Part shown: positions 6,042 to 20,915 of the stretch, in pieces | How positions within the stretch are numbered: the stretch's first letter is position 1 | Layout of the letters: each line of letters opens with the position of its first letter | Source: a virus | DNA length: 20,915 nt | Strand: one strand, 5' to 3' | IMG/VR virus record: IMGVR_UViG_3300049434_000031 | Location: 1-20,915 of that record | Program-made: the position numbers and the translations under genes | Notes under the pieces: model-generated | The model's input: the letters and a program-made list of their open reading frames with translations, nothing else | The model's database searches: none | Told to the model about the DNA's origin: nothing

Positions 6042-8309
6042 CTAAACAGTGCCGACGGGCGGATTGGTGTCCCATTTGATGATGTAGCGGCTAATGATTT
6101 TCAAAACTTCGAGCGCCGCCATTGAGGGCTCTTGGCTTCCACTGGCGCTTGCGGTAGACGACGGCCCCGCATGGGCGGGGAGCGGGACGGCAATGGCCAC
6201 GGGCCGCGGCTGGCGCACCGGATCAGGAGCCTCTACGTCGGTCGTGGCGACGGCGACGGCGGGGGCGTGAGCGGGTCTTCCTGCCCGCGGTGCAGCCTTC
6301 CACGTCGGGGCCGCGGCGAACGCGGACAAATCGGAAATGCCGTCGTTCGGTCCCAACATGCCCCCCATCATCTCGGCAAGTTTGGCGGGGGAGTTATTGG
6401 CCCCGTCTTTATCGCCGCTGCCGACGTTCACGTTGAACCCAAGGGAGGGCCTGGGGGCCGTCGTAGCAAAGGATGGAGCTTTGATGCCGGTTGCGGCGGG
6501 CGGGGCTTGTAGGCCCGCATCGGCGGCCGCATGGAGACTCTGAGACAGCTCCGCACTGGCGAGCCGCTGTTGGGCACTCCCGAACTTAATCAGCTTGGCG
6601 GATTTTATTTCGGGCTGAATGCCGAGGGTGAGGGTCGACGGGTCTAGTTTTGGTGTGATTATGGGGCTGGTGGCGCCGCCGGCCGGATCGCCCAATCCCT
6701 TCCACCCTTCACGCAAAGCGTTTTTGATCTTCTCGGAAATGTTCCCCGCTTTCTTGTCCTGTTCGTCAAGGTATTCGTTGAGGCCCTTTCCGAAGGCGGT
6801 CGTTTTGGCGTCCAGGTCTTCCCCGAGGGCCTTTTCGAGTTCGCCGGGGATGCGCTCGGCAAGTTTGCCGAGTTTGTCCACTTCACTTTCAAAGCCAGCG
6901 CTGAGGGGCGTGAATGTGGCTTTTACATCGTCCAACGTGAGGGCGCCGGTGAGTAGTCCGGGGATCGCCAGTACGAAAGCCCCGATGTTGGCGGCCACAT
7001 TGTTTAAAGTTGTCATGGTGCCGGTGGAAAAGTCCTGCATCGAGGCGATGGCGTAGCGGATGCCGTAGGGGATGGCGGTGGTGAAGACGTACTCGGCTTG
7101 GTTCCCGAGTTTGACGAGGCCGTAGATGATGCCCTCGCCCGCGATGTCGGCCACGTCCTGCAGGTGGTTGAGACTATAGGCGGCGATGTTGATGCCGGTG
7201 GTTAAACCCTCGGCGAAAGCCTGCACGCCGCTGAGAATGTTTTCAAAGGATCCGGTAGCCCCATCGGCGGCGTCGGCGCTCTGGCCGGTGATAAGTTCCG
7301 TCCCCCAGCTCCACACCGCACTCACGGCATTCCACACGGCGGAAGCAATTTGGCTGATGGCGCTGAACGTCCCTGAAATCGTGTTCCATATTCCCACGCC
7401 GGCCGCGACGGTCGCGTCCACCATCTTCGTCCAGTTGGCGGCCACGAAATCGTAAATCCCCATCACCACCGGCGCGACGTAGTTATACACCTGATCCCAC
7501 GCACCTTTGAGAAGTGGCAGCATGGCCACGGTGATCCCGGTGATCTTCGTAGCGATGCCCGTCACGAGCGGGGCGAGGCCGACGGCGATGTTTTGGGCGA
7601 TCCCCGTTCCGACCGCTTTCAACCGCGTGATGGCATCATTGGCGTCCTCGATTTTCTTGGCGTCGATGCGGCTGTAGGTGAGGCCAAGTTTCTCCGCTTC
7701 TTTTTGCGCGGCGGCGATGCCCTGAGATCCGCTCATCAAAAGCGGGAGAAGACTTTGCGCCCCCTTTCCAAAGATAGCTATGGCGGCAGTGGCGCGTTCG
7801 GTCGGGTTTTTAATGCCGGCGATCTTGTCGGAGATCACGGCGAAGGCTTCATCGGGTTTCATTTTGGTAAGGGCATCGACGGATAGCCCCATGGCGTTGA
7901 TTGCGTCGGCACTCTTCTCCCCATCGTCCCCCGCCTTGCCGAGAGACTTGAACATGTGTTCAAACGCGACAGTCACATCCTCGGATGAAATACCCGCCAA
8001 GTTCGCCGCGTGCTGCAGGCCGACAAGTTTCTCGGTGGCGATGCCGAGGCGATCGGAGAGCTTGGCGTTAACGTCCATCCCCTCGAAAGCCTCTTTGACG
8101 GCGGTGATTCCGCCGATGCTTCCGCCAATCAATCCCACGCCGGCGGTGATCGCGGCCCCGATGCCCGTGAATTTCACCAGGCCCGAACCAATCCCCGCAA
8201 TCTTCGAACCGAAACCGCTGGCGGCGCTGGCGGCTCCGCTGAAGGCTTTGGAGAGGCCGGAGAAATCTCCGCCGATTCCTACGCTTAATTTTGTGAGAGT
8301 TTTGGCCAT
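6042..8309 (-). CDS. Tail tape measure protein
   Basis: 755 aa, the longest gene here, placed between the chaperone pair and the distal tail genes as in lambda-like phages. It sets tail length and is threaded inside the tail tube, later helping DNA entry. The sequence has long helical, Ala/Gly/Lys-rich stretches. Glycine-rich hydrophobic segments lie at residues ~38-70 (GSGLVKFTGIGAAITAGVG) and ~245-275 (GIATKITGITVAMLPLL), and Trp-rich repeats at ~300-340 (GIWNTISG, SAVWNAVSAVWSWG). The early residues NAKLSDRLGIATEKLVGLQHA match the common N-terminal tape-measure domain. The ATG overlaps the chaperone stop (TAATG). At roughly 1.5 angstrom per residue, the length would give a tail of about 110 nm. 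Confidence 0.92.
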   Translation of the reverse strand: MAKTLTKLSVGIGGDFSGLSKAFSGAASAASGFGSKIAGIGSGLVKFTGIGAAITAGVGLIGGSIGGITAVKEAFEGMDVNAKLSDRLGIATEKLVGLQHAANLAGISSEDVTVAFEHMFKSLGKAGDDGEKSADAINAMGLSVDALTKMKPDEAFAVISDKIAGIKNPTERATAAIAIFGKGAQSLLPLLMSGSQGIAAAQKEAEKLGLTYSRIDAKKIEDANDAITRLKAVGTGIAQNIAVGLAPLVTGIATKITGITVAMLPLLKGAWDQVYNYVAPVVMGIYDFVAANWTKMVDATVAAGVGIWNTISGTFSAISQIASAVWNAVSAVWSWGTELITGQSADAADGATGSFENILSGVQAFAEGLTTGINIAAYSLNHLQDVADIAGEGIIYGLVKLGNQAEYVFTTAIPYGIRYAIASMQDFSTGTMTTLNNVAANIGAFVLAIPGLLTGALTLDDVKATFTPLSAGFESEVDKLGKLAERIPGELEKALGEDLDAKTTAFGKGLNEYLDEQDKKAGNISEKIKNALREGWKGLGDPAGGATSPIITPKLDPSTLTLGIQPEIKSAKLIKFGSAQQRLASAELSQSLHAAADAGLQAPPAATGIKAPSFATTAPRPSLGFNVNVGSGDKDGANNSPAKLAEMMGGMLGPNDGISDLSAFAAAPTWKAAPRAGRPAHAPAVAVATTDVEAPDPVRQPRPVAIAVPLPAHAGPSSTASASGSQEPSMAALEVLKIISRYIIKWDTNPPVGTV

Positions 8310-8632
8310 TAGTTGTTCCCCCGCAGAGCGAGCCCGGCGTTATGCCGCATGTAGCGGGCATCCGCCTTTTCGCGGTAGGTTTCGGGCGTGGCGGGCTGTT
8401 TGAGTTCGAAACGCATGAGGTAATCACGCTCCGGCTTCTTGCCCCCGCACAATGCCCAAGTGATGCGAGCCTGCGCGTAGTTAAGGGCGTCGAACCCGGC
8501 CGGCTCCAGCATGAGCGCGATCCGCCATTCGTCAATTTGTCGGGGGGTGAGTTCGTCGGCGAGATAGTCGGGATGCTTCACCCCGATCAAGCCACACAAG
8601 CGAAAGCTGAAAAGCTCGTCGGGGCTTAGGAT
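8309..8632 (-). CDS. Tail assembly chaperone, T-like extension made by -1 frameshift
   Basis: This frame has no convincing start of its own. From the slip site at 8632 it reads ILSPDELFSFR then CGLIGV-HPDYLADELTPRQIDEWRIAL, the usual C-terminal domain fused to the G-type chaperone in lambda GT-like systems, and ends at the stop overlapping the tape measure start. A TTG at 8599 is in frame but would remove the first residues of the domain. The expected fusion is 103 residues of the upstream protein plus 107 from here, about 210 aa. The fusion holds the tape measure during tail tube assembly and is absent from the finished particle. Confidence 0.75.
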   Translation of the reverse strand: MLSPDELFSFRLCGLIGVKHPDYLADELTPRQIDEWRIALMLEPAGFDALNYAQARITWALCGGKKPERDYLMRFELKQPATPETYREKADARYMRHNAGLALRGNN

Positions 8633-8940
8633 TTTGGGCCGGGGGATTCTCCCGCGGTGGTGGGCTTGGGGGCGAAGCCGTTCAATTCAGAGATGGCGGT
8701 TTCGAGTTTCTTGAGGGTGGCGAAGGCGAGGGCATCGGTAAGGGCGGCAACATCTTCGGGCGTGTAAACCTTTTTCCCATCCTCCACCACGCTATCGACC
8801 ACGGCGCGGAGCGTAGAAGCGAGTCCGTCTAGTCCCTTCATGGCGTTCACGTCGGCAACACTCATTTCCTGAATGGTGACTTCGAGGCCGTCAAGATTTA
8901 CAACGGAAGTCTTTCGACCTTTGGTGAGTAGGGTTTTCAT
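8626..8940 (-). CDS. Tail assembly chaperone, G-like
   Basis: 104 aa, with ATG after GAGGATGCT. It lies between the major tail protein and the tape measure, the fixed place of the G-like chaperone. It begins with a beta-type stretch (TSVVNLDGLEVTIQEMSVADV) followed by helices (EDVAALTDALAFATLKKLETAI) and a Pro-rich end. Just before the stop is the heptamer CCCAAAA, allowing some ribosomes to shift into the T-like frame. The product keeps the tape measure soluble before tail assembly. Length and position fit the family; direct sequence similarity is weak, as usual for this group. Confidence 0.75.
   Translation of the reverse strand: MKTLLTKGRKTSVVNLDGLEVTIQEMSVADVNAMKGLDGLASTLRAVVDSVVEDGKKVYTPEDVAALTDALAFATLKKLETAISELNGFAPKPTTAGESPGPKS
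8632..8638 (-). promoter_or_regulatory. Programmed -1 ribosomal frameshift site CCCAAAA
   Basis: On the minus strand the zero-frame codons GGC-CCA-AAA-TCC-TAA contain C-CCA-AAA, an ideal X-XXY-YYZ slippery heptamer. After slipping one base back the P and A sites read CCC and AAA, so the A-site tRNA pairs perfectly and the P-site tRNA at two positions. The stop TAA is only one codon further on, and the -1 frame continues open into the T-like domain. Confidence 0.8.
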
Positions 8941-8951
8941 AGCATCCTCGG

Positions 8952-8996
8952 CGGTGGAATAATCGGAAAACGGGGGGGCAATTTTGGGCCATCCCC
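8952..8996 (-). terminator. Weak hairpin after the major tail protein gene
   Basis: In the 57-bp gap on the minus strand a GGGGG block (near 8992-8996) and a CCCCCCC block (near 8974-8980) can pair across a loop containing GGCCCAAAATTG. CGTTTTCC follows. It is a short G-C stem with a poor T-tract; a partial terminator or attenuator that favours the major tail gene is plausible, but it may be nothing. Confidence 0.25.
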
Positions 8997-8997
8997 C

Positions 8998-9423
8998 TTA
9001 CGAAACGGCTGCCATAAAGAGGGCGCGGCTCGTGAGGATGATGGTGACGGTGCCGTGGATGGCTTCGTCCTCGGTCTTCGTCGTAACAGGAACCTTGCTG
9101 ATCCAGCCCTCAAACTTCCATCCGCTGCCGTCCGGGAAGACTTCCTTGAAGTGGCAATGTGTCCGCGCGTCATGCAGCGCAAAGAGCGAGGCCTGCTGGG
9201 TCTTGGTATAGACCCACTCAAATTCCGTCTCGCCCGGCTCGGTGAGGCCGGGGATATATTCATGCGAATTGGCGGGCGAGTCGTTGTTCGTGATCTTCAC
9301 TTTCGGAATCTCGGATTCCGGGCTCTTGAGGTCGATTGATTGGGCGATTTTGTTGGCGATGGAATCGGCGGAAAGCCCTTGATAAATTTGGCTTCCGAAA
9401 CCGAGTGTTGCGTCACTACTCAT
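8998..9423 (-). CDS. Major tail (tube) protein
   Basis: 141 aa, ATG preceded by AGGGGA. It begins MSSDATLGFGSQIYQG. It then has the alternating hydrophobic pattern of tail tube proteins, with FEWVYTKTQQASLFALHDARTH, FPDGSGWKFEGWISKVPVTT and an ending GTVTIILTSRALF, matching the beta-sandwich with a terminal strand seen in lambda gpV-like proteins. Size and position between the tail completion gene and the chaperones are classical. It forms stacked hexameric rings around the tape measure. I am confident of the role; the exact subfamily is not determined. Confidence 0.85.
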   Translation of the reverse strand: MSSDATLGFGSQIYQGLSADSIANKIAQSIDLKSPESEIPKVKITNNDSPANSHEYIPGLTEPGETEFEWVYTKTQQASLFALHDARTHCHFKEVFPDGSGWKFEGWISKVPVTTKTEDEAIHGTVTIILTSRALFMAAVS

Positions 9424-9486
9424 GTTTTTCCCCTGAAAGAGTCCGGTCGTATACCCTGTTATTTCGACGACGGCGGCGGGGATTCC

Positions 9487-9882
9487 TTACCTGTAGTAAT
9501 TGAAACGCACGCTCAAGACGGCGATTTGGTTGGGGTTTTGGCGGCCGGCATCGGTGGGCTCTACCGCGTCCCCCTCGTTTTCAATGAAGAGCCCCCCGAA
9601 TTGAGTGCTGCCGCGCGTGGCGGTCATGTTGGCGTGAATGGCGGCCTTTACGAGAACGGACAAAGCGCGGGCGTCCGGCATGAGCGGGGCGATGCAGTTG
9701 ATTTGAATCCAGGCGGTAGCGGTGCCAACGGGGCCGTCGTTGGTGTAGTGCGCCGGCTGCTGCATCCGCTTGAGCGTGATCTTGGGAAAGACCTTACCGT
9801 TTGGGTCGGTTTCAAGTTGGATTGGGGTTGTCGCCAGCCCCGCATTGGTGCGGAGCAAAGTCACAATGTCATCTTCCAGCAT
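9487..9882 (-). CDS. Tail completion protein (DUF3168-like)
   Basis: 131 aa, with ATG after GAGGGG. It begins MLEDDIVTLLRTNAGLATTPI, followed by FPKITLKRMQQPAHYTNDG, the pattern of phage tail completion or terminator proteins of the DUF3168/gpU-like group (short N-terminal helix, then YP/FP-hydrophobic strand and a central helix ALSVLVKAAIHANM). It caps the tail tube so the tail can join the head. It overlaps the HK97 gp10-like gene by 14 bases and is followed by the major tail gene, the usual order. Confidence 0.85.
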   Translation of the reverse strand: MLEDDIVTLLRTNAGLATTPIQLETDPNGKVFPKITLKRMQQPAHYTNDGPVGTATAWIQINCIAPLMPDARALSVLVKAAIHANMTATRGSTQFGGLFIENEGDAVEPTDAGRQNPNQIAVLSVRFNYYR

Positions 9883-10330
9883 TTTCGATCCCCTCTTTTA
9901 GTTTGGATTCAAACACGGTAAGCGATTGGGCGTGGCTGGCGTTGTAGCCGCGCTCCATGAAGTTGTTACCGGCCACGGCTTTGCCCTCGGGAGTGATGTG
10001 GCCAAAAAGCACGAGGTGAAGGTGGCGGGCCACGCGCGGACCCTGATTCGGTTCGGTGGCTTTCGCGCCCCCCTCGATCCGGGCGGTGTCGATGCCGACG
10101 ATGGCGGATGCACCGCGGCTTTTTACAGATACTTTGCTGGCGAGGCCCTTGCGAAGATCGCCGGAATTGACGGGGCAAGCGGCCTTGACGGCCTGCAGCA
10201 TGGGGCGGATGGCGGCGGTAGACGCACGGCGCAAAATCTTCTTGGCTGTTCGCGGATCGGCGAGGGTTCGCAGCTCTTTTTTGAGCCTGTCGATCCCGTC
10301 AATTTTCATTCTTAGTGCGAATCCGCTCAC
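9869..10330 (-). CDS. HK97 gp10-like head-tail joining protein
   Basis: 153 aa. It opens with a GTG that overlaps the previous stop (GTGA); an in-frame ATG at 10309 (MKIDGIDRLKKEL) is an alternative. The pattern KIDGIDRLKKELRTL, then RRASTAAIRPMLQAVKAACPVNSGDLRKGL-SKV and a later HLVLFGH with NFMERGYNA is diagnostic of the HK97 gp10 family: helix-rich N-terminus, P-V-x-SG-L/DLR loop, and the end motif before a helical tail. These proteins act at the tail-to-head joint. Its neighbours (head closure and tail completion) confirm this. Confidence 0.9.
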   Translation of the reverse strand: MSGFALRMKIDGIDRLKKELRTLADPRTAKKILRRASTAAIRPMLQAVKAACPVNSGDLRKGLASKVSVKSRGASAIVGIDTARIEGGAKATEPNQGPRVARHLHLVLFGHITPEGKAVAGNNFMERGYNASHAQSLTVFESKLKEGIENAGR

Positions 10331-10686
10331 GTGCGCTCCACCACCATGTACATGAGCTCCCGGTTAGCTTCCTCGGGGTTGATGGCGGCGCCGACGATCT
10401 CGAACACGCGCGAGCCAAAGAGAATCCGGTCCTCGGCGGCTGGGGGAGCTGGTGAGCGGGTGTAGGTAATCGTAATTTTGTGCGTCGCCTCGGAATAGAT
10501 GGCGGCATTTTCTTTGATGAGGATCTCGCGAGCGCTGAACGGCTCGCGAGCGCTGAGCGGCTCGATACTTGCCCACCGCGCGGCGTCGTTCGTGTACGTC
10601 GGCGTTTTCTGGATGCCGCTCCCGGTGAGAGTGCGGCGGGACACGATGATGCGATGCCGGCGACGGCCGGCCCCTTGCGTCTTCAT
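10327..10686 (-). CDS. Head closure / head-tail adaptor protein
   Basis: 119 aa. The start ATG overlaps the glycosyltransferase stop (ATGA). The product is the small beta-barrel head closure type (SPP1 gp16-like): Arg-rich start, TNDAARWASIEPLS, then a hydrophobic strand THKITITYTRS, DRILFGSRVFEIVGAAINPEEANRELMYMVVE. It plugs the connector after packaging. Residues ~43-54 contain PLSARE followed by PFSARE, from an 18-bp direct duplication, at the place where the family usually has one such motif. Confidence 0.88.
   Translation of the reverse strand: MKTQGAGRRRHRIIVSRRTLTGSGIQKTPTYTNDAARWASIEPLSAREPFSAREILIKENAAIYSEATHKITITYTRSPAPPAAEDRILFGSRVFEIVGAAINPEEANRELMYMVVERT
10525..10560. repeat. 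18-bp tandem duplication in the head closure gene
   Basis: Copies at 10525-10542 and 10543-10560 (CTCGCGAGCGCTGAACGG and the same with a G at the third A of the end) differ at one base and encode PLSARE/PFSARE. Each contains the palindromes TCGCGA and AGCGCT. It keeps the frame, so it is tolerated. Confidence 0.9.
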
Positions 10687-11648
10687 GGCTTCACCTCGGC
10701 GAAGAGGGCGGCGTCAATCGCGGCGATGATCGGCTCGGGGTTCCAGGTGTTCGGCAGGAAGTGAACGGGGTGGGGAGAATTTTTGATGCGCATCAAGTCG
10801 ATGAAATCCTCTTGGCCATCATTTCGGAAAACCACAATCGGCTTTCCGATGGTAGATGCGAGATGCGTAGTGCCAGTGTCCGTTCCCACCCATAGGGCGC
10901 ATCGGCCAATCGCCTCGATAGCTGCATCACAGTTGCCGTCTGTATGGAAGCGCTGGCCGTCGAGGTCGAACGACGTGGGCCGTTTGCCCACCACGCCAAA
11001 CGTAAGCCCGCGGGCGGTGAGGGCGTCGGCGATTGCCTGCCATGCTTCGCGGGGGAAGTTCCGCTCCTGGCAAAAGTCACGCACGCGCACCCCGAGGCAA
11101 ACGTCCACTTTCAGAGCGCGGCGGCCGTGCGGGCGCGGGTTGAACGGGATGCGCTGATCGGGGCAGAGGACGTGATGCTCTTGGGCCTGGGTGAGGCCGC
11201 CGGCGTAGAGCGGGGTGACGCCTTGGAATTTGGCGAGGATGGCAGGCCACTCCACGGGCGGGCGTTCAAAGGGGCGGATTGTACCGGCCCGCTGCTCGTC
11301 GGGGATCGGGTCGGCCCACTCGGTATGAAACTCGTCGGCGGTGGGGTAGAGCGATTCCTCGCCCTTCCTGCAACACACAATTTTTCGCTTAGCCTGGCTG
11401 AAATGTACGATGCGGATGTGGGTTAGGATCATGTGGCCAAATTCGCCGACGAACGGGAGACAGAGAACGGTTTCGCCGGCGCCGATAGCGAGTCGTTTTT
11501 CGAGATCATCGATGAATCCCGGCGGCCTGGCGGAAATTATGGCGTGACGGCCGCGCACCCATGACGCGCCGATGGCGTCGGGAACGTCATAGATTGCCCC
11601 GCCCACGTAGCAGTCGCTGGCGGTGGCCACACTTTCGAGCATCTTCAC
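10683..11648 (-). CDS. GT9-like (heptosyltransferase-type) glycosyltransferase with phage-like N-terminus
   Basis: About 321 aa. The GTG at 11648 overlaps the upstream stop (GTGA) and is preferred; a TTG at 11654 and an ATG at 11642 are possible. The C-terminal half resembles GT9/heptosyltransferase proteins: VDVCLGVRVRDFCQ, LTFGVVGKRP and especially CALWVGTDTGTTHLASTIGKPIVVF at ~250-275, the nucleotide-sugar binding motif, where heptosyltransferases show GNDTGPMHLA. The first ~40 residues (KMLESVATASDCYVGGAIYDVPDAIGASWVRGRHA) look instead like a small phage head-region domain with a YDVP motif. It is embedded in the head-tail connector operon. Transfer of a sugar to a particle protein or host surface is inferred; the sugar and acceptor are unknown. 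Confidence 0.7.
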   Translation of the reverse strand: MKMLESVATASDCYVGGAIYDVPDAIGASWVRGRHAIISARPPGFIDDLEKRLAIGAGETVLCLPFVGEFGHMILTHIRIVHFSQAKRKIVCCRKGEESLYPTADEFHTEWADPIPDEQRAGTIRPFERPPVEWPAILAKFQGVTPLYAGGLTQAQEHHVLCPDQRIPFNPRPHGRRALKVDVCLGVRVRDFCQERNFPREAWQAIADALTARGLTFGVVGKRPTSFDLDGQRFHTDGNCDAAIEAIGRCALWVGTDTGTTHLASTIGKPIVVFRNDGQEDFIDLMRIKNSPHPVHFLPNTWNPEPIIAAIDAALFAEVKP

Positions 11649-12271
11649 AAACAAGGCCGATTCTCCATGTGCATCTTGAACAGGTCCAGGCGGGTCTGCA
11701 TCGGCAGCGCCGCGGCGTGCAGGGCAAACATCCCTTCATGCCACTCGGGCCGGCCTTCCACGCCGACGGGGAAACGACCCTGCAGGGTCTCCAGCGGTAC
11801 GACGTCGGCCGCGTACCAACCCTCGGCGAGAATCTTGATCATGGCCGTTTGCTCGTTGGGTTCGCTGTTGCGCTGAGCGGCGATGCCTTCTAAGAATTTA
11901 TGCGAGGCGTAGTTGTTGCGGATGAAAAAGAGATCGTCGTTTATGCCGCGGTCATCGCTGCCTATGATGAGGTCCGAGGGGGTGGCGGTGAATGTGTCGG
12001 GGGCGGTGGGGGGGCTGGTGAGCATCACGTCGGCGCCGAGGAAGAGGAACCATTCGGCGGGGCTGCTCTGCATCGCATGAAGCAAGGCGAGGATGCGTTC
12101 CTCCCACCTTCCGACCGTCCACGTCTTTGTGATGTCCCCGGAAATTTCAATGAGCCGGTGACATTGAAAACCCATCCCCCAGCGCTGAGCGTAGGCAAGG
12201 GCGGCGGGAGCGGTGAATTGCAGCAAGGGCCAATGTGTCGCGGAAGCAGAAATGAAAACTACGCCGTTCAT
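11645..12271 (-). CDS. Putative glycosyltransferase, GT34-like
   Basis: 208 aa, ATG overlapping the previous stop (ATGA). The sequence has the outline of a GT-A type glycosyltransferase: N-terminal strand MNGVVFISAS, a central W-F-L-F-L-G-A-D-V-M (residues ~74-83) resembling a DxD-type metal-nucleotide site (DVM would supply only one Asp), and later INDDLFFIRNN and KFLEGI-A-Q-NSEPNEQTAMIKIL, like the N-x-G-x-F and E-Q-x-A motifs of the GMA12/MNN10-like group. That similarity is partial, so I cannot settle the family. It partners the GT9-like gene in the middle of the connector genes. Substrate unknown. Confidence 0.55.
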   Translation of the reverse strand: MNGVVFISASATHWPLLQFTAPAALAYAQRWGMGFQCHRLIEISGDITKTWTVGRWEERILALLHAMQSSPAEWFLFLGADVMLTSPPTAPDTFTATPSDLIIGSDDRGINDDLFFIRNNYASHKFLEGIAAQRNSEPNEQTAMIKILAEGWYAADVVPLETLQGRFPVGVEGRPEWHEGMFALHAAALPMQTRLDLFKMHMENRPCL

Positions 12272-12828
12272 CCGATTCCTCCGGGCGCGTATTTGTCGTA
12301 AATGATGGCGAGGCCGGTGGGGATGCTGTCCGCGTCGGCTTCGCGGTAACGGTATTTGTGGGCGACGTGGGCGATGATGCCCCCGCGGATGGCGGCGGGG
12401 ACGCTGGCGGCGGCATCGCCGTAACCAGCCACGTACACCACCGTAACGGGGCCGATCACTGAGCCGATAAGTTGCACGACTTCCTTGTTACCGACGGTGC
12501 GGCGCTGATAGCTCACGTCGTTGCCCGCGCCGTTCTTGACGCTGATGATTAATTGCACTGGGCCGCGGAACAGTTCCAGCGGGAAATACACCGGGAAAGG
12601 GTTGGCGGCGACAAGGGCGCGTGAATTGTCGGGGTAGTAAACGGCGGTGATGGTGCGGGTGATGAGGGATTGTTGCGTCTCATTTTCGGCGTAGTCGGTG
12701 GCGTCGGCGATGGCGCGCGTCACCCAATTCGCCTCCAAAGTGAGATCGTCAAGCCGGGTTTGGTCGGCGACTTCCTGCGCCGTCACCGGCATGATGGCGG
12801 GCGGGGTGGTGATCTTCCATTGCGCCAT
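12268..12828 (-). CDS. Head-tail connector protein (gp6-like)
   Basis: 186 aa. The start is the ATG at 12828, preceded by GGGGA at good spacing; the TTG at 12840 is less likely because it sits in the terminator T-tract. The pattern PVTAQEVADQTRLDDLTLEANWVTRAIADATDYAENETQQSLITRTI is that of HK97 gp6/YqbG-like adaptors: a short leader, then two helices and a TG-like turn. A beta-rich middle (LFRGPVQLIISVK) and a helical end with HVAHKYRYREA follow. It forms the ring below the portal. Its place right after the capsid terminator marks the start of the connector block. Confidence 0.88.
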   Translation of the reverse strand: MAQWKITTPPAIMPVTAQEVADQTRLDDLTLEANWVTRAIADATDYAENETQQSLITRTITAVYYPDNSRALVAANPFPVYFPLELFRGPVQLIISVKNGAGNDVSYQRRTVGNKEVVQLIGSVIGPVTVVYVAGYGDAAASVPAAIRGGIIAHVAHKYRYREADADSIPTGLAIIYDKYAPGGIG

Positions 12829-12838
12829 GGCGTTCCCC

Positions 12839-12877
12839 AAAAAATAAACCCGCGGGGTTTATGTCCCCCGCGGGTTT
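12839..12877 (-). terminator. Strong intrinsic terminator after the capsid gene
   Basis: On the minus strand AAACCCGCGGGG-GACATAAA-CCCCGCGGGTTT is a perfect 12-bp stem with an 8-base loop, followed by ATTTTTT. It sits 40 bp past the major capsid stop, and the GGGGA ribosome site of the connector gene follows at once. It would lower expression of downstream genes relative to capsid, or require antitermination for the tail operon. Confidence 0.85.
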
Positions 12878-12917
12878 CGGTTTTACGGCGGGGACGATTG
12901 CCGCCGCTGATCGGTTC

Positions 12918-14099
12918 TTAACTGGCGGCGTGCTTGAGGAAGCTGTAGCCGGGGGCGAGGTCAAAGTCGCCGTTGACGAATTCCTGCCAGCCGGTTTGGT
13001 CGGCGTTGGTCGGGAGGTTCTTATACACGGCGATGCGGCGGTTGTTTTCGCTGCGCGCCTTGATGCTGGCGGCGCTCACGAAGACGCCGGAAACAGCATT
13101 GGCGGCGGGATCGGCCATATTCACGTCGATCACCACGGGGCAACCGCGAAGCGTCTTGACGGCGCCGGTGATGAGCGGGTCAGACAGCAACGGGCGGTGA
13201 ATGTCATCGGTCAGGTTTTCCATCGCGGCGAGCAATCCGTCCGAGACGACAAATATTCCGTCCACACGGAACGGGGCCGAAAGTGAGTGATACCAGGCGA
13301 CGAACTGGGCATAGGTGATGCCCGATGCCGCGGCGGCCGACGTGTGGCCACTCGTGTGGGTCAGTGCCTTAGTTGTCCATGCCGCGCCCTGCGCCAATTC
13401 GATGCGTTTTTCGAGGATGGGGAGGACGTAGGCGGAGAGGTCGTAGCCGGGGGCCTGCAGAACGGTGTTGGAGAGGAAGAGAGATTTGGAATCGTAGAGG
13501 ATGGCGCCGAGGCTGATCGAGGTGATGGTGGGTTCGGCCTCCGTCGCAGCTCCAGCGTCCTGCGCGAGCACTTGGCCAGAGACGCTTGTGTCATCAATCA
13601 CGGGGATGGTGACGGTCTCGGTGCTTCCCATGCTGATAATCGGCTGGCCGCCGATCATGCAGGCATTCGCCCACGGGTTCCAAAACCTGCGAACGGTCTG
13701 CGGAGTGAGTACGGTGGTGGGGACGAGCGCGCCGGAACCGGTGGCGGTCGTGACGACGGCGAAGGATTCGCGGCCTTCGCCATGCATGTAGGCGCCGTAC
13801 TCTTCGGCGTTGCCGGTGCGAAGGTAGCGATTGAACGCGGCCTTGTCAGCCTTTGCGGGGTCACGCGGGGCGCCGGGGGCGTTGAGGGGCTGGCGTGGCT
13901 CGGTGATCTGGCTGAACTGCATCGCGGCGGCTTCTTTTTCGCCGTCCAGAGTCTTCTTGAGGCCGGCAAAATGCTCCATTGCCGTGCGGGTCTGCGTGTA
14001 TTCCTCGGTGGTGAGTTCGCGGGCTTCCGTCTTCGCCTTCTCATAGATAGCGGCAACGTCGGCGCGGATCGTGTTCATTTTTTCAATGCGCGGGTCCAT
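12918..14099 (-). CDS. HK97-like major capsid protein
   Basis: 393 aa from the ATG at 14099, which has AGGGGA eight bases upstream; the ATG at 14129 is a weaker alternative. Residues 1-~70 are helical and charged (DPRIEKMNTIRADVAAIYEKA, AMEHFAGLKKTLDGEKEAAA), the delta/scaffold domain of HK97-type capsids. This is followed by a typical switch to the shell domain near residues 120-140 (SFAVVTTATGSGALVPTTV). Later strands and the end (AVYKNLPTNADQTGWQEF-NGDFDLAPGYSFLKHA) fit the fold. The prohead protease immediately upstream is expected to remove the delta domain; the exact cleavage site is not visible. No separate scaffold gene is seen, consistent with this type. Confidence 0.92.
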   Translation of the reverse strand: MDPRIEKMNTIRADVAAIYEKAKTEARELTTEEYTQTRTAMEHFAGLKKTLDGEKEAAAMQFSQITEPRQPLNAPGAPRDPAKADKAAFNRYLRTGNAEEYGAYMHGEGRESFAVVTTATGSGALVPTTVLTPQTVRRFWNPWANACMIGGQPIISMGSTETVTIPVIDDTSVSGQVLAQDAGAATEAEPTITSISLGAILYDSKSLFLSNTVLQAPGYDLSAYVLPILEKRIELAQGAAWTTKALTHTSGHTSAAAASGITYAQFVAWYHSLSAPFRVDGIFVVSDGLLAAMENLTDDIHRPLLSDPLITGAVKTLRGCPVVIDVNMADPAANAVSGVFVSAASIKARSENNRRIAVYKNLPTNADQTGWQEFVNGDFDLAPGYSFLKHAAS

Positions 14100-14158
14100 G
14101 TTCGATTCCCCTGAATAGACGGTAGTCACTGGCCGAAACTCTGCCGGCGTTCAATTGG

Positions 14159-14767
14159 TTAATTCGACGGCGGGAGGTTCATTTCCTGAATTTCGACGCT
14201 GAGACGGTTGCGGAGCGGCGTGGGCGCTGGCGGCTTGGCCTGGGCGAATTCGCTGGCGATGCTGGTGTCCGTGAAAGCGGGGCGGCCGGTGACAGTCACC
14301 TCGTCAAACTCGAATTCCGAATACTCGATAATGTCGGGCTCTCCCTCTTTCTCGGTGACTTCATATTTGCAATTGGCCCATAGCATGGAAAAGCTCATGC
14401 CGTTCACGTCACCGCGCCGGATCAGCGCCACCATGTCCCGGTTGTAGCTGGTGTCGGCGGGGTCAATCTCGACCTTCAAGCCCTTGTCATCGCTGGTCAT
14501 CTTGAGCGTGCCGTTGCCGGCGCATCCCATGATCTTCGTGAAATCGTGATCGCAAACGGCAAAGGTGTTTTCGTTGGCTGGCTTGGCGCTGCCGGCCTTC
14601 AACCGCACCTTGTAGCCGCCCCGATCGTCGGAGAGCGTGTTCCACTTCATGGCGTAGCCGGTGAGGATGGGCATTTTGTTCTCGCGATCCTGCACGGCGA
14701 ATTCGACGGCCTCGCGGTCGAGGTTGAAAATCTGCTTTTGGCCTGGGATGGGGCGATTGGTTTTCAT
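14159..14767 (-). CDS. Prohead protease (HK97 gp4-like, S78/U35 type)
   Basis: 202 aa from the ATG at 14767 with GGAG upstream; the open frame further upstream runs into the portal gene. It begins MKTNRPIPGQ. It contains ILTGYAMKWN near residue 34, VCDHDFTKIMG with catalytic His74, and DVNGMSFSM with catalytic Ser125, the two signature blocks of the herpesvirus/HK97 prohead protease fold; the GR-AF segment at ~161 follows as in the family. It cleaves the capsid delta domain during maturation. It sits between portal and capsid as in HK97, two bases from the portal stop. Confidence 0.92.
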   Translation of the reverse strand: MKTNRPIPGQKQIFNLDREAVEFAVQDRENKMPILTGYAMKWNTLSDDRGGYKVRLKAGSAKPANENTFAVCDHDFTKIMGCAGNGTLKMTSDDKGLKVEIDPADTSYNRDMVALIRRGDVNGMSFSMLWANCKYEVTEKEGEPDIIEYSEFEFDEVTVTGRPAFTDTSIASEFAQAKPPAPTPLRNRLSVEIQEMNLPPSN

Positions 14768-19354: not shown

Positions 19355-19509
19355 CACTCCCTCCCCCAGCGGGCGAATTGAGCAAAGCAATATATGCCGA
19401 ATCCTATTGCCACCGAATTAGTTCCCCACGATATCAAAAACAGCCCGGCAACAGCCCACAAATTGAAGACGATGGCATTGAAGATATGTTTGGTGGTTTC
19501 TTGGCGCAT
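19354..19509 (-). CDS. 51-aa small membrane protein
   Basis: Start at ATG 19509, which has GGAG with five bases spacing and overlaps the stop of the sigma-like gene (TGATG); its own TGA overlaps the HNH start. A double ATG at 19512 has worse spacing. After a polar start (MRQETTKHIF) residues ~11-46 are hydrophobic (AIVFNLWAVAGLFLISW, VAIGFGIYCFAQF) with one short polar break, enough for one long or two short membrane segments. It ends with ARWGRE. Small size and membrane segments fit a holin or a similar protein, but nothing is diagnostic. It is too short for usual gene callers. Confidence 0.65.
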   Translation of the reverse strand: MRQETTKHIFNAIVFNLWAVAGLFLISWGTNSVAIGFGIYCFAQFARWGRE

Positions 19510-20111
19510 CATTTCTCCAATTGGCCGGCAATCTTGCGGCGGGCTTGAAAGACGGCGTTGTCAACGGCCTTGGTGGTGACGCCGAGACGTTCAGCGGTGC
19601 GGCGGTAAGTGTCCCCGTGGGTGACGGCAAGGAAGGCGCGGCGTTCAAACTTCGAGAGGGTGCGGCTAACCTTCCGCCATTCGTGATTGGCCTCGTCGAC
19701 GTTATCAATTGTGGTTTCTGGATCAATGAAGGCGACGGGGGGGGCGTATGAATCCTTGAACAGCTTGGGGATTTCCGGTTTCGCATCGTGGGGGCGGCGC
19801 TTGCCGCGGTAGCCGTCACCGTGATTCTTGCGGGTGTTTTTGAGGCGTAAAAGGTCAACGCATTTGTGCGTGAGAATCGCTCCAAAGCACACGCGAACGC
19901 TGCCTTTATAGGGCTCATAATTATTTACGAGATTTATAACACTTTCTCCGGCGGCGCTTTCCACGTCATCGGTATCAACACTGTGAAAACCCATCCGCAC
20001 GCGCCGCATGATAGGCCAAAGCGCGGCGATGAGTTGGCGGTACGCGTCCTCGCGCTGCGTGGTGTAGCAGCTGCGAGCCTGGGTGATGAGTTGGGGGAGA
20101 TCGACTTCCAT
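19509..20111 (-). CDS. Phage-encoded sigma-factor-like protein (SigH/ECF type)
   Basis: 200 aa from the ATG at 20111 after AGGAT. Residues ~18-95 resemble sigma region 2: RQLIAALWPIMRRVRMGFHSVDTDDVESAAGESVINLVNNYEPYKGSVRVCFGAILTHKCVDLLRLK has the order of the ECF/SigH group (DDVES, then E-YKG, then LTHKCVDLLR). Residues ~145-198 resemble region 4 with LSKFERRAFLAVTHGDTYRRTAERLGVTTKAVDNAVFQARRKI, a helix-turn-helix of the type that contacts the -35 element. The two halves are joined by a 40-residue basic linker. A phage sigma factor would redirect host RNA polymerase to late promoters; the target promoters are not identified. A transcription-regulator role is the alternative. Confidence 0.75.
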   Translation of the reverse strand: MEVDLPQLITQARSCYTTQREDAYRQLIAALWPIMRRVRMGFHSVDTDDVESAAGESVINLVNNYEPYKGSVRVCFGAILTHKCVDLLRLKNTRKNHGDGYRGKRRPHDAKPEIPKLFKDSYAPPVAFIDPETTIDNVDEANHEWRKVSRTLSKFERRAFLAVTHGDTYRRTAERLGVTTKAVDNAVFQARRKIAGQLEK

Positions 20112-20118
20112 TTTTATC

Positions 20119-20915
20119 CTAAAGCGCCGTGGCCAATCCGCCGGCAATGAGGCTGGCGGACAATGCATCCGAGACGGTGTAGCCATGCTGACCGAGATAC
20201 GTCGTTACGCTGCGGTCGGGATTAAAAATAGCAACGGTTTGCGTCATCAGAACATTGCCGGTTTGCGGGCCGAACAGAGATCCCGATGATCCACTGAGCG
20301 TGCCGCGATCGGCGCCGGTGATGGCGGTCCAATCGCCGGTGATGGCATAGCCATCCTCAACGTGCCCCTTCTGCGCGATGATGTTTGCACGGGCGGCGGC
20401 ATTCGCTGCGGCGGCGGTAGTTGCCGACGTGGGATAACTCCCGCCTGTTCCGCCGGTGTAATTATCATGGCCAGTGACCACGAATGAGGCGCTGACCACG
20501 GCAGAGACAAGCACATAGGACGAGAGGTTTAGTGTCGGCGTGCTGCCGGTGCCATCGACCCCGTAGGGGCCATTGGTGGTGTCAACCTTTCCCCCCGGCG
20601 GAATAGTGAGCGTGCCCGTGTCCTGATCAATGGGCTGGGCGCTCAAAACATATTGCTTGGCGGGTACATGGCAGGCACCCGTCAACGTGTTGCCCGTGTC
20701 TCCGAAGTTCACGCCGAATCGCACGTCTGATTGGTCCGGTTGTACAACCGTTCCAACGGAACTACCGTCCACATCGTATGTAACGCCGTCCAAAACGTTC
20801 GTCACTGTCGGAACGACAAGCCCACCCGTATGAGAGTCGGCCGCATCAAAAGCAACACCGAATCTCACGTCCGCATCGCTCGGCACCCGAAGGTCTCCGC
20901 TCGTCGCATCGACAC
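20119..20915 (-). CDS. Repeat-containing fibre-like structural protein, N-terminus outside window
   Basis: The frame is open from the window edge (first complete codon at 20913) to a TAG at 20119, at least 264 residues. A GTG at 20886 lies in frame, but the sequence upstream (ATSGDLRVPSDADV) continues the same repeat, so the true start is beyond the window. Two DVRFGV units (in DADVRFGVAFD and SDVRFGVNFG) alternate with TG-x-L-x-VP and VLDGVTYDVDG-type strings; these short beta repeats are typical of phage fibre or decoration proteins. The end is Ala-rich helical plus Gly/Thr-rich (TTAAAANAAARANII). It precedes the sigma-like gene by seven bases. A host-contact role is inferred. Confidence 0.65.
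   Translation of the reverse strand, partial: VDATSGDLRVPSDADVRFGVAFDAADSHTGGLVVPTVTNVLDGVTYDVDGSSVGTVVQPDQSDVRFGVNFGDTGNTLTGACHVPAKQYVLSAQPIDQDTGTLTIPPGGKVDTTNGPYGVDGTGSTPTLNLSSYVLVSAVVSASFVVTGHDNYTGGTGGSYPTSATTAAAANAAARANIIAQKGHVEDGYAITGDWTAITGADRGTLSGSSGSLFGPQTGNVLMTQTVAIFNPDRSVTTYLGQHGYTVSDALSASLIAGGLATAL

Follow-up and report, generated by a model that had tools for sequence, protein, structure and literature searches.

A predicted glycosyltransferase pair within the head-tail connector operon of a tailed phage, with a head-region domain joined to one enzyme

The head-tail connector and head closure genes of the phage described here are separated by two genes whose products resemble glycosyltransferases, a GT34-like protein of 208 residues (12271-11645, minus strand) and a GT9-like protein (11648-10683, minus strand), and the second of these begins with a domain related to small proteins found in the head modules of related phages. 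The DNA analysed, referred to below as the window, is the whole of IMG/VR record IMGVR_UViG_3300049434_000031, a linear metagenome-derived sequence of 20,915 bases that may be a fragment. We give roughly even chances to the interpretation that the pair forms a late-expressed virion-glycosylation module, combining co-translation, stepwise sugar transfer and docking during assembly. A first-pass annotation of this DNA had already drawn attention to the pair, and the genes, strands and coordinates that it proposed were all recovered.

Scans against Pfam, PHROG and NCBIfam place a tailed-phage morphogenesis operon on the minus strand of the window, running from the terminase large subunit (18064-16412) and the portal (16431-14770) through a major capsid protein of the HK97 type (14129-12918; Pfam Phage_capsid, 43.2 bits; phrog_10) to the major tail protein (9423-8998) and the tail chaperone (8940-8626). 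The identities given earlier to the genes flanking the pair hold. The gp6/gp8-like head-tail connector (12840-12268, starting at TTG 12840 or ATG 12828) matches TIGR02215 at 39 bits, a score exactly at the cut-off (E 7e-10), as well as phrog_442 (E 9.1e-10), and the head closure protein (10686-10327) matches Pfam Phage_HCP at 56.9 bits and phrog_25. Downstream of these lies an HK97 gp10-like neck or tail completion protein (10330-9869; Pfam 23.1 bits against a cut-off of 21.4; phrog_5). Overlapping stops and starts had been described for the pair, and they are present at every junction as 4-base overlaps, with ATGA between the connector and GT34-like genes, GTGA between the two enzyme genes, ATGA between the GT9-like and head closure genes, and GTGA between the head closure and gp10-like genes. 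This regularity suggests GTG 11648, in preference to TTG 11654, as the most likely start of the GT9-like gene. Under a codon-usage model learned from 15 other window genes, the GT34-like and GT9-like frames score 0.19 and 0.21 log units per codon, respectively, and the other five frames of each are negative. Together with the overlaps, this coding signal supports the proposed coupling of the pair to the head-tail genes, with which the sequence predicts that they would be co-translated.

The 77 bases between the capsid and connector genes contain a terminator-like hairpin on the minus strand (12846-12877) with a GC-rich stem of 12 pairs followed by ATTTTTT. Seven terminator-like sites were found in all, against 8.3 expected in shuffles, and this hairpin has the longest stem among the terminator-like sites listed and a fold z-score of -2.59. 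It probably lowers expression of all the genes downstream of it. A scan of positions 8000-14500 detected no promoter-like site on the minus strand. The overlaps, the position of the hairpin before the connector and the lack of a promoter-like site belonging to the pair suggest that the two enzyme genes are part of a connector-tail unit, and transcription is probably reduced at a point upstream of that unit.

Other parts of the window contain further features of some interest. Upstream of the terminase genes, a Sigma-70-like protein is encoded on the minus strand at 19509-20186; its region 4 scores above the Pfam cut-off, and it is possible that this is a phage transcription factor. Near the left end, the minus-strand frame at 2223-2651 encodes the zinc ribbon of an IS1595-type transposase (Pfam, 37.3 bits) and terminates in residues unlike its remainder. 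A 220-residue protein encoded at 751-1413, also on the minus strand, has no match in Pfam, and its second half consists of an alanine run with repeated Trp-Arg and Asp-Asp.

The GT34-like protein scores 23.9-24.6 bits against Pfam GT34 (PF05637), above the cut-off of 23, and 20.7 bits against Pfam Nucleotid_trans, under the cut-off of 22. The D-x-D motif, which binds metal and nucleotide, is a hallmark of GT-A enzymes. At the corresponding position (residues 79-81) the window protein has G-A-D, in which the first aspartate is missing and the last is kept, and its activity is for this reason not assured. No relative of the protein was detected in viral contigs, or in phage records at E values up to 10. 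Matches in bacterial genomes (2 of 299 and 1 of 150 genomes at E<=0.01) were set aside as chance, being 54-61 residues long with E values of 0.003-0.005, and two of the three contained internal stops. A direct comparison with the GT34 gene of a related phage (L135) gave 2.5 bits, a score reached by 21 of the 1,523 shuffles reported from 2,000 made, and was not counted as support.

The evidence for the GT9-like protein is concentrated in its C-terminal half. Its score against Pfam GT9 (PF01075) is 17.9-19.9 bits, under the cut-off of 22, over a match limited to residues 244-274, and the NCBIfam models for heptosyltransferases I and II match far below their cut-offs. The donor-site motif D-T/S-G-x-x-H-L/I-A is nevertheless intact as DTGTTHLA (residues 259-266; 10880-10857) within a predicted GT9 donor-binding domain (10827-11069, minus strand). 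Bacterial genes of two phyla match the protein at E<=0.01, mostly over residues ~195-300 (35 of the 299 genomes searched in one phylum, 31 of 200 in the other). A profile in which 12 of these genes predominate (A3) matches structures of heptosyltransferases I and II with E values down to 5.8e-59, indicating that the matched bacterial genes are GT9 enzymes. A profile of 30 bacterial genes scores the window protein at 50.6 bits, a value that is partly circular since the genes were picked with the window protein as query. The N-terminal half of GT9 enzymes, a GT-B half-domain, carries a catalytic aspartate after its first strand. This enzyme half of the window protein had no match in any search, and only a loose A3 alignment hints that a GEFG stretch at residue 70 could be the counterpart of the catalytic-aspartate region. 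Viral contigs, phage records (E<=0.1) and genome contigs yielded no relative of the GT9-like protein, and matches to plasmids were weak (8 records, best E 0.05).

The two glycosyltransferase calls of the first-pass annotation survive at different strengths: profile searches place the first protein in GT34 above the cut-off, and the second falls short of GT9 (at best 19.9 bits) and is recognized in its C-terminal half only, with profile and comparative tests supporting the assignment. Each enzyme falls short of its family in one defining feature, and for this reason we name them as GT34-like and GT9-like, not as members of these families. Neither whole protein has a PHROG match, and no full-length relative of either enzyme was found in the viral, phage-record or bacterial-genome searches. 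Single-sequence structure models of both proteins were poor (pLDDT 36).

The start of the GT9-like protein had been described as resembling a phage head domain, and a profile from which the window was left out bears this out, although Pfam and PHROG are silent. Related loci were collected as 53 fetched with the terminase and 80 more, giving 133 loci and, with the window included, 13,832 ORFs. Among the 6,203 ORFs of the 53 terminase-fetched loci, the first match to the N-terminal region was a 78-residue free-standing ORF (L003, E 0.0031) directly upstream of the connector gene of its own locus, and three further loci (L015, L016 and L019) were seen on reading to have similar small ORFs near the same place. 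A profile made from 16 small free-standing head-module ORFs of related phages, none of them from the window, recognizes the first ~37 residues of the GT9-like protein (11648-11538, minus strand) at 19.6 bits, with an E value of 4.8e-4 over all 13,832 ORFs. The GT9-like protein is the best of the 394 window frames for this profile (E 2.5e-5; next best 0.48), and its score was reached by none of the 17,580 shuffles reported from 20,000 made (22.2 against a shuffle maximum of 11.8). Within the window, no free-standing copy of the domain was found, and the GT9-like gene is the sole convincing frame. A first version of the profile was discarded: its iteration had admitted capsid ORFs of three rhizobial loci (L025, L028 and L049) and it gave the window an E value of 0.046, and with the rebuilt profile these three ORFs fall to E ~0.5. 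The 45-residue N-terminal stretch by itself matches no Pfam or PHROG family at E<=10, so its link to the family rests on the profile built here.

Members of this family occur commonly near the connector gene. An alignment of 19 members (A2), comprising 18 small proteins and the window stretch, includes 13 that match phrog_2616, four that match Pfam DUF7302 and three that match DUF7210, and three and two members weakly match PHROG families called head-tail connector. The function of phrog_2616 is given as unknown in PHROGs, the family is likewise without known function in Pfam, and no paper on the names phrog_2616, DUF7302 or DUF7210 was found in the literature searched. The A2 profile also shows a weak likeness to the N-terminal domain of ribosomal protein bL9 (E 0.0027). 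The likeness between the GT9-like protein and these proteins consists of the fit of its first ~37 residues to a profile most of whose proteins match the three families. They are normally free-standing and lie upstream of the connector, whereas the window domain is fused to an enzyme downstream of it. Among the 42 non-rhizobial loci with capsid and connector genes in order, 26 have a family member between the two and 16 have none at E<=0.01. Sixteen of the 26 positive loci contributed training rows to the profile, and the other ten lie outside the training set, several being near copies (e.g., L160 of L173). The distance to the connector varies, with the family member lying 2.5 kb upstream in L168 and 390 bases upstream in L099.

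A second fusion was encountered in another locus (L164), where the first ~40 residues of the capsid protein (6170-7501) match the head-domain family at 14.7 bits (E 0.016 over all ORFs), a score reached by none of the 19,042 shuffles reported from 20,000 made. No free copy of the domain was present in that locus among the matches listed. The capsid domain is followed by a charged, helix-like stretch. By its sequence, this appears to be an independent fusion of the head-region domain, and the domain itself appears to be a portable part of head modules that is joined here to an enzyme.

The slot occupied by the pair was compared across the related loci. The connector and head closure genes had been described as normally adjacent, and this is so in 18 of the 27 non-rhizobial relatives with both genes, in which the gap is 200 bases or less. 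It fails in the other nine, where the gap is larger and other inserts are present, including collagen-like proteins (L109 and L114), small uncharacterized proteins (L106, L160, L170 and L173) and unclear ORFs (L015, L117 and L171). The collagen-like inserts, at 16906-17766 in L109 (Pfam Collagen) and 16909-18324 in L114, both lie between the connector and head closure genes. The rhizobial group (L021-L044 and L048-L053), defined by similarity to records of Rhizobium and its allies, makes up 30 of the 58 loci with slot data and stands outside both the 42 and the 27 loci counted above. In five rhizobial gaps inspected, the ORFs between the two profile hits are genes that we take to be gp10-like and tail-terminator-like.

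Whether relatives lack the pair at this slot had been posed as a check. In the 49 of the 133 related records that were searched, Pfam GT9 was found in none and Pfam GT34 in one, where it lies elsewhere in the genome. Across 57 loci, rhizobial loci included, none of the 65 gap ORFs of at least 45 residues resembled either enzyme convincingly (best E 0.021), and the bacterial GT9 profile run over the 13,832 ORFs retrieved the window gene alone at E<=0.01. The relatives are distant, with terminases at 46% identity or less, and queries with the capsid, portal and a tail-region protein found no closer relatives of the phage in viral contigs.

Glycosylation of a virion protein, as hinted in the first-pass annotation, can reasonably be inferred by analogy with phage Corndog, which offers a precedent. 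The enzymes would be translated together with the neck proteins, a coupling to which the observed overlaps point. In this scheme a sugar would be attached or lengthened by the GT34-like enzyme, and its GT9-like partner would add another. The N-terminal domain of that partner would probably dock it on the capsid or neck during assembly, a role guessed from the position of the domain. Capsid, neck or tail-tube subunits would in this way be glycosylated as the particle is built. A more specific proposal, which we advance tentatively and as a possibility only, is that fusion of a capsid-docking domain to the glycosyltransferase lets the enzyme act on, or enter, the assembling procapsid or neck, reaching it by structural-domain targeting and not by free diffusion. 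If true, the joining of a head-module domain to a transferase would provide a natural, ready-made test of how transferases reach their virion targets. It would likewise offer a first way into the function of the phrog_2616/DUF7302/DUF7210 protein, encoded beside the capsid gene in many relatives, and the domain might serve as a tag to steer enzymes to phage heads.

The main rival to virion glycosylation is a late alteration of the host surface, in which the pair would modify the LPS core or O-antigen so that progeny are freed from debris or rival phages are excluded, the slot being merely convenient. The GT9 enzymes include LPS heptosyltransferases, and it is structures of heptosyltransferases I and II that profile A3 reaches. 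Phage enzymes that change the serotype of the host are known as well (PMC12619734). A head-module domain has no obvious use on LPS, however, and the fusion adds no support to this explanation; neither protein has a membrane-like segment (highest 19-residue hydropathy 1.16 and 1.32 for the two proteins); and the genes lie within the head-tail operon with no promoter-like site of their own on the minus strand. On balance we find modification of the host surface unlikely.

Less probable still is that the pair is decayed or idle cargo, at least one enzyme being inactive, in a slot that tolerates foreign genes. The presence of other inserts in nine of the 27 non-rhizobial relatives is what such a slot would produce, and the missing first aspartate of D-x-D and the GT9 score under the cut-off could be read as signs of decay. 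Against this, both reading frames are uninterrupted, use codons as the phage's other genes do and have overlapping starts, DTGTTHLA is intact, and the fused head domain indicates a gene that has been integrated. We attach little probability to a third explanation, in which the acceptor is not protein but phage DNA or some other small molecule: DNA-base-modifying glycosyltransferases are known from viruses (cited in PMC12619734), but no base-modification gene was recognized among the window proteins scanned, which represent part of the ORFs of a record that may be a fragment, and the pair sits among structural genes, not replication genes. That the GT9-like protein serves chiefly as a structural component of the head, its enzyme half being a scaffold fold carried in the particle, is very improbable, as a pure scaffold would not need the conserved donor motif and in Corndog the enzymes went unidentified in virions (PMC4351075), even though no other frame of the window has a convincing copy of the head-region domain.

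Glycosylation of virion proteins by phage-encoded enzymes, the reading that we prefer, has counterparts in several known systems. Glycosylated proteins have been reported for phages Che8, Corndog and Myrna (PMC12363180). One close likeness is to the Corndog/cluster O mycobacteriophages, in which, as in the window, several sugar-transfer genes lie inside the structural operon: an O-methyltransferase (gp35), two glycosyltransferases (gp36 and gp37) and a putative N-acetylglucosaminyltransferase (gp38) are encoded between the portal and protease genes (PMC4351075). The authors of that work propose modification of the capsid, whose peptides were under-represented in mass spectrometry, and the modifying enzymes were detected in infected cells, with none identified in virions. 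The Corndog slot, compared here by its description, differs from the connector/head closure slot of the window, and the accessible part of that description mentions neither a GT9-like enzyme nor a head-domain fusion, both of which are features of the window (PMC4351075). In Che8, a cluster of phage-encoded glycosyltransferases (gp108-gp110) is similarly tied to capsid glycosylation (PMC12363180). Unlike the window pair in its neck operon, the Che8 cluster lies at the right end of the genome, and its Pfam families (GT2 with a methyltransferase, GT2-like under the cut-off, and GT25) differ from GT34 and GT9. No similarity was found in three of the six possible pairs, namely the GT34-like protein with gp110 and gp109 and the GT9-like protein with gp108.

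Among bacterial enzymes, the GT9-like protein shares with heptosyltransferases and TibC-type proteins a C-terminal donor domain bearing the D-T/S-G-x-x-H-L/I-A motif, and profile A3 also reaches TibC (residues 213-325), which modifies a protein. It differs from them in its unrecognized N-terminal half and in a whole-protein score under the Pfam GT9 cut-off. The L135 phage (IMGVR_UViG_3300044610_000192) encodes a related terminase and also carries a gene that matches Pfam GT34 above the cut-off, but this gene lies outside the head-tail slot, ~17 kb from the terminase gene. In the same phage (L183:8165-11556), GT34, Methyltransf_24 and GT2-like genes are found close together but apart from the head genes, and make up a candidate cassette for glycan modification that is separate from the head operon. 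The enzyme pair, its slot and the head-domain fusion were met neither in the sequence searches nor in the literature searched, as far as its text was accessible. Taken together, a phage-encoded virion glycosylation module in a structural operon is already known from Corndog, and what is new in this phage is the enzyme pair, the slot that it occupies and the fusion of a head-region domain to one of the enzymes.
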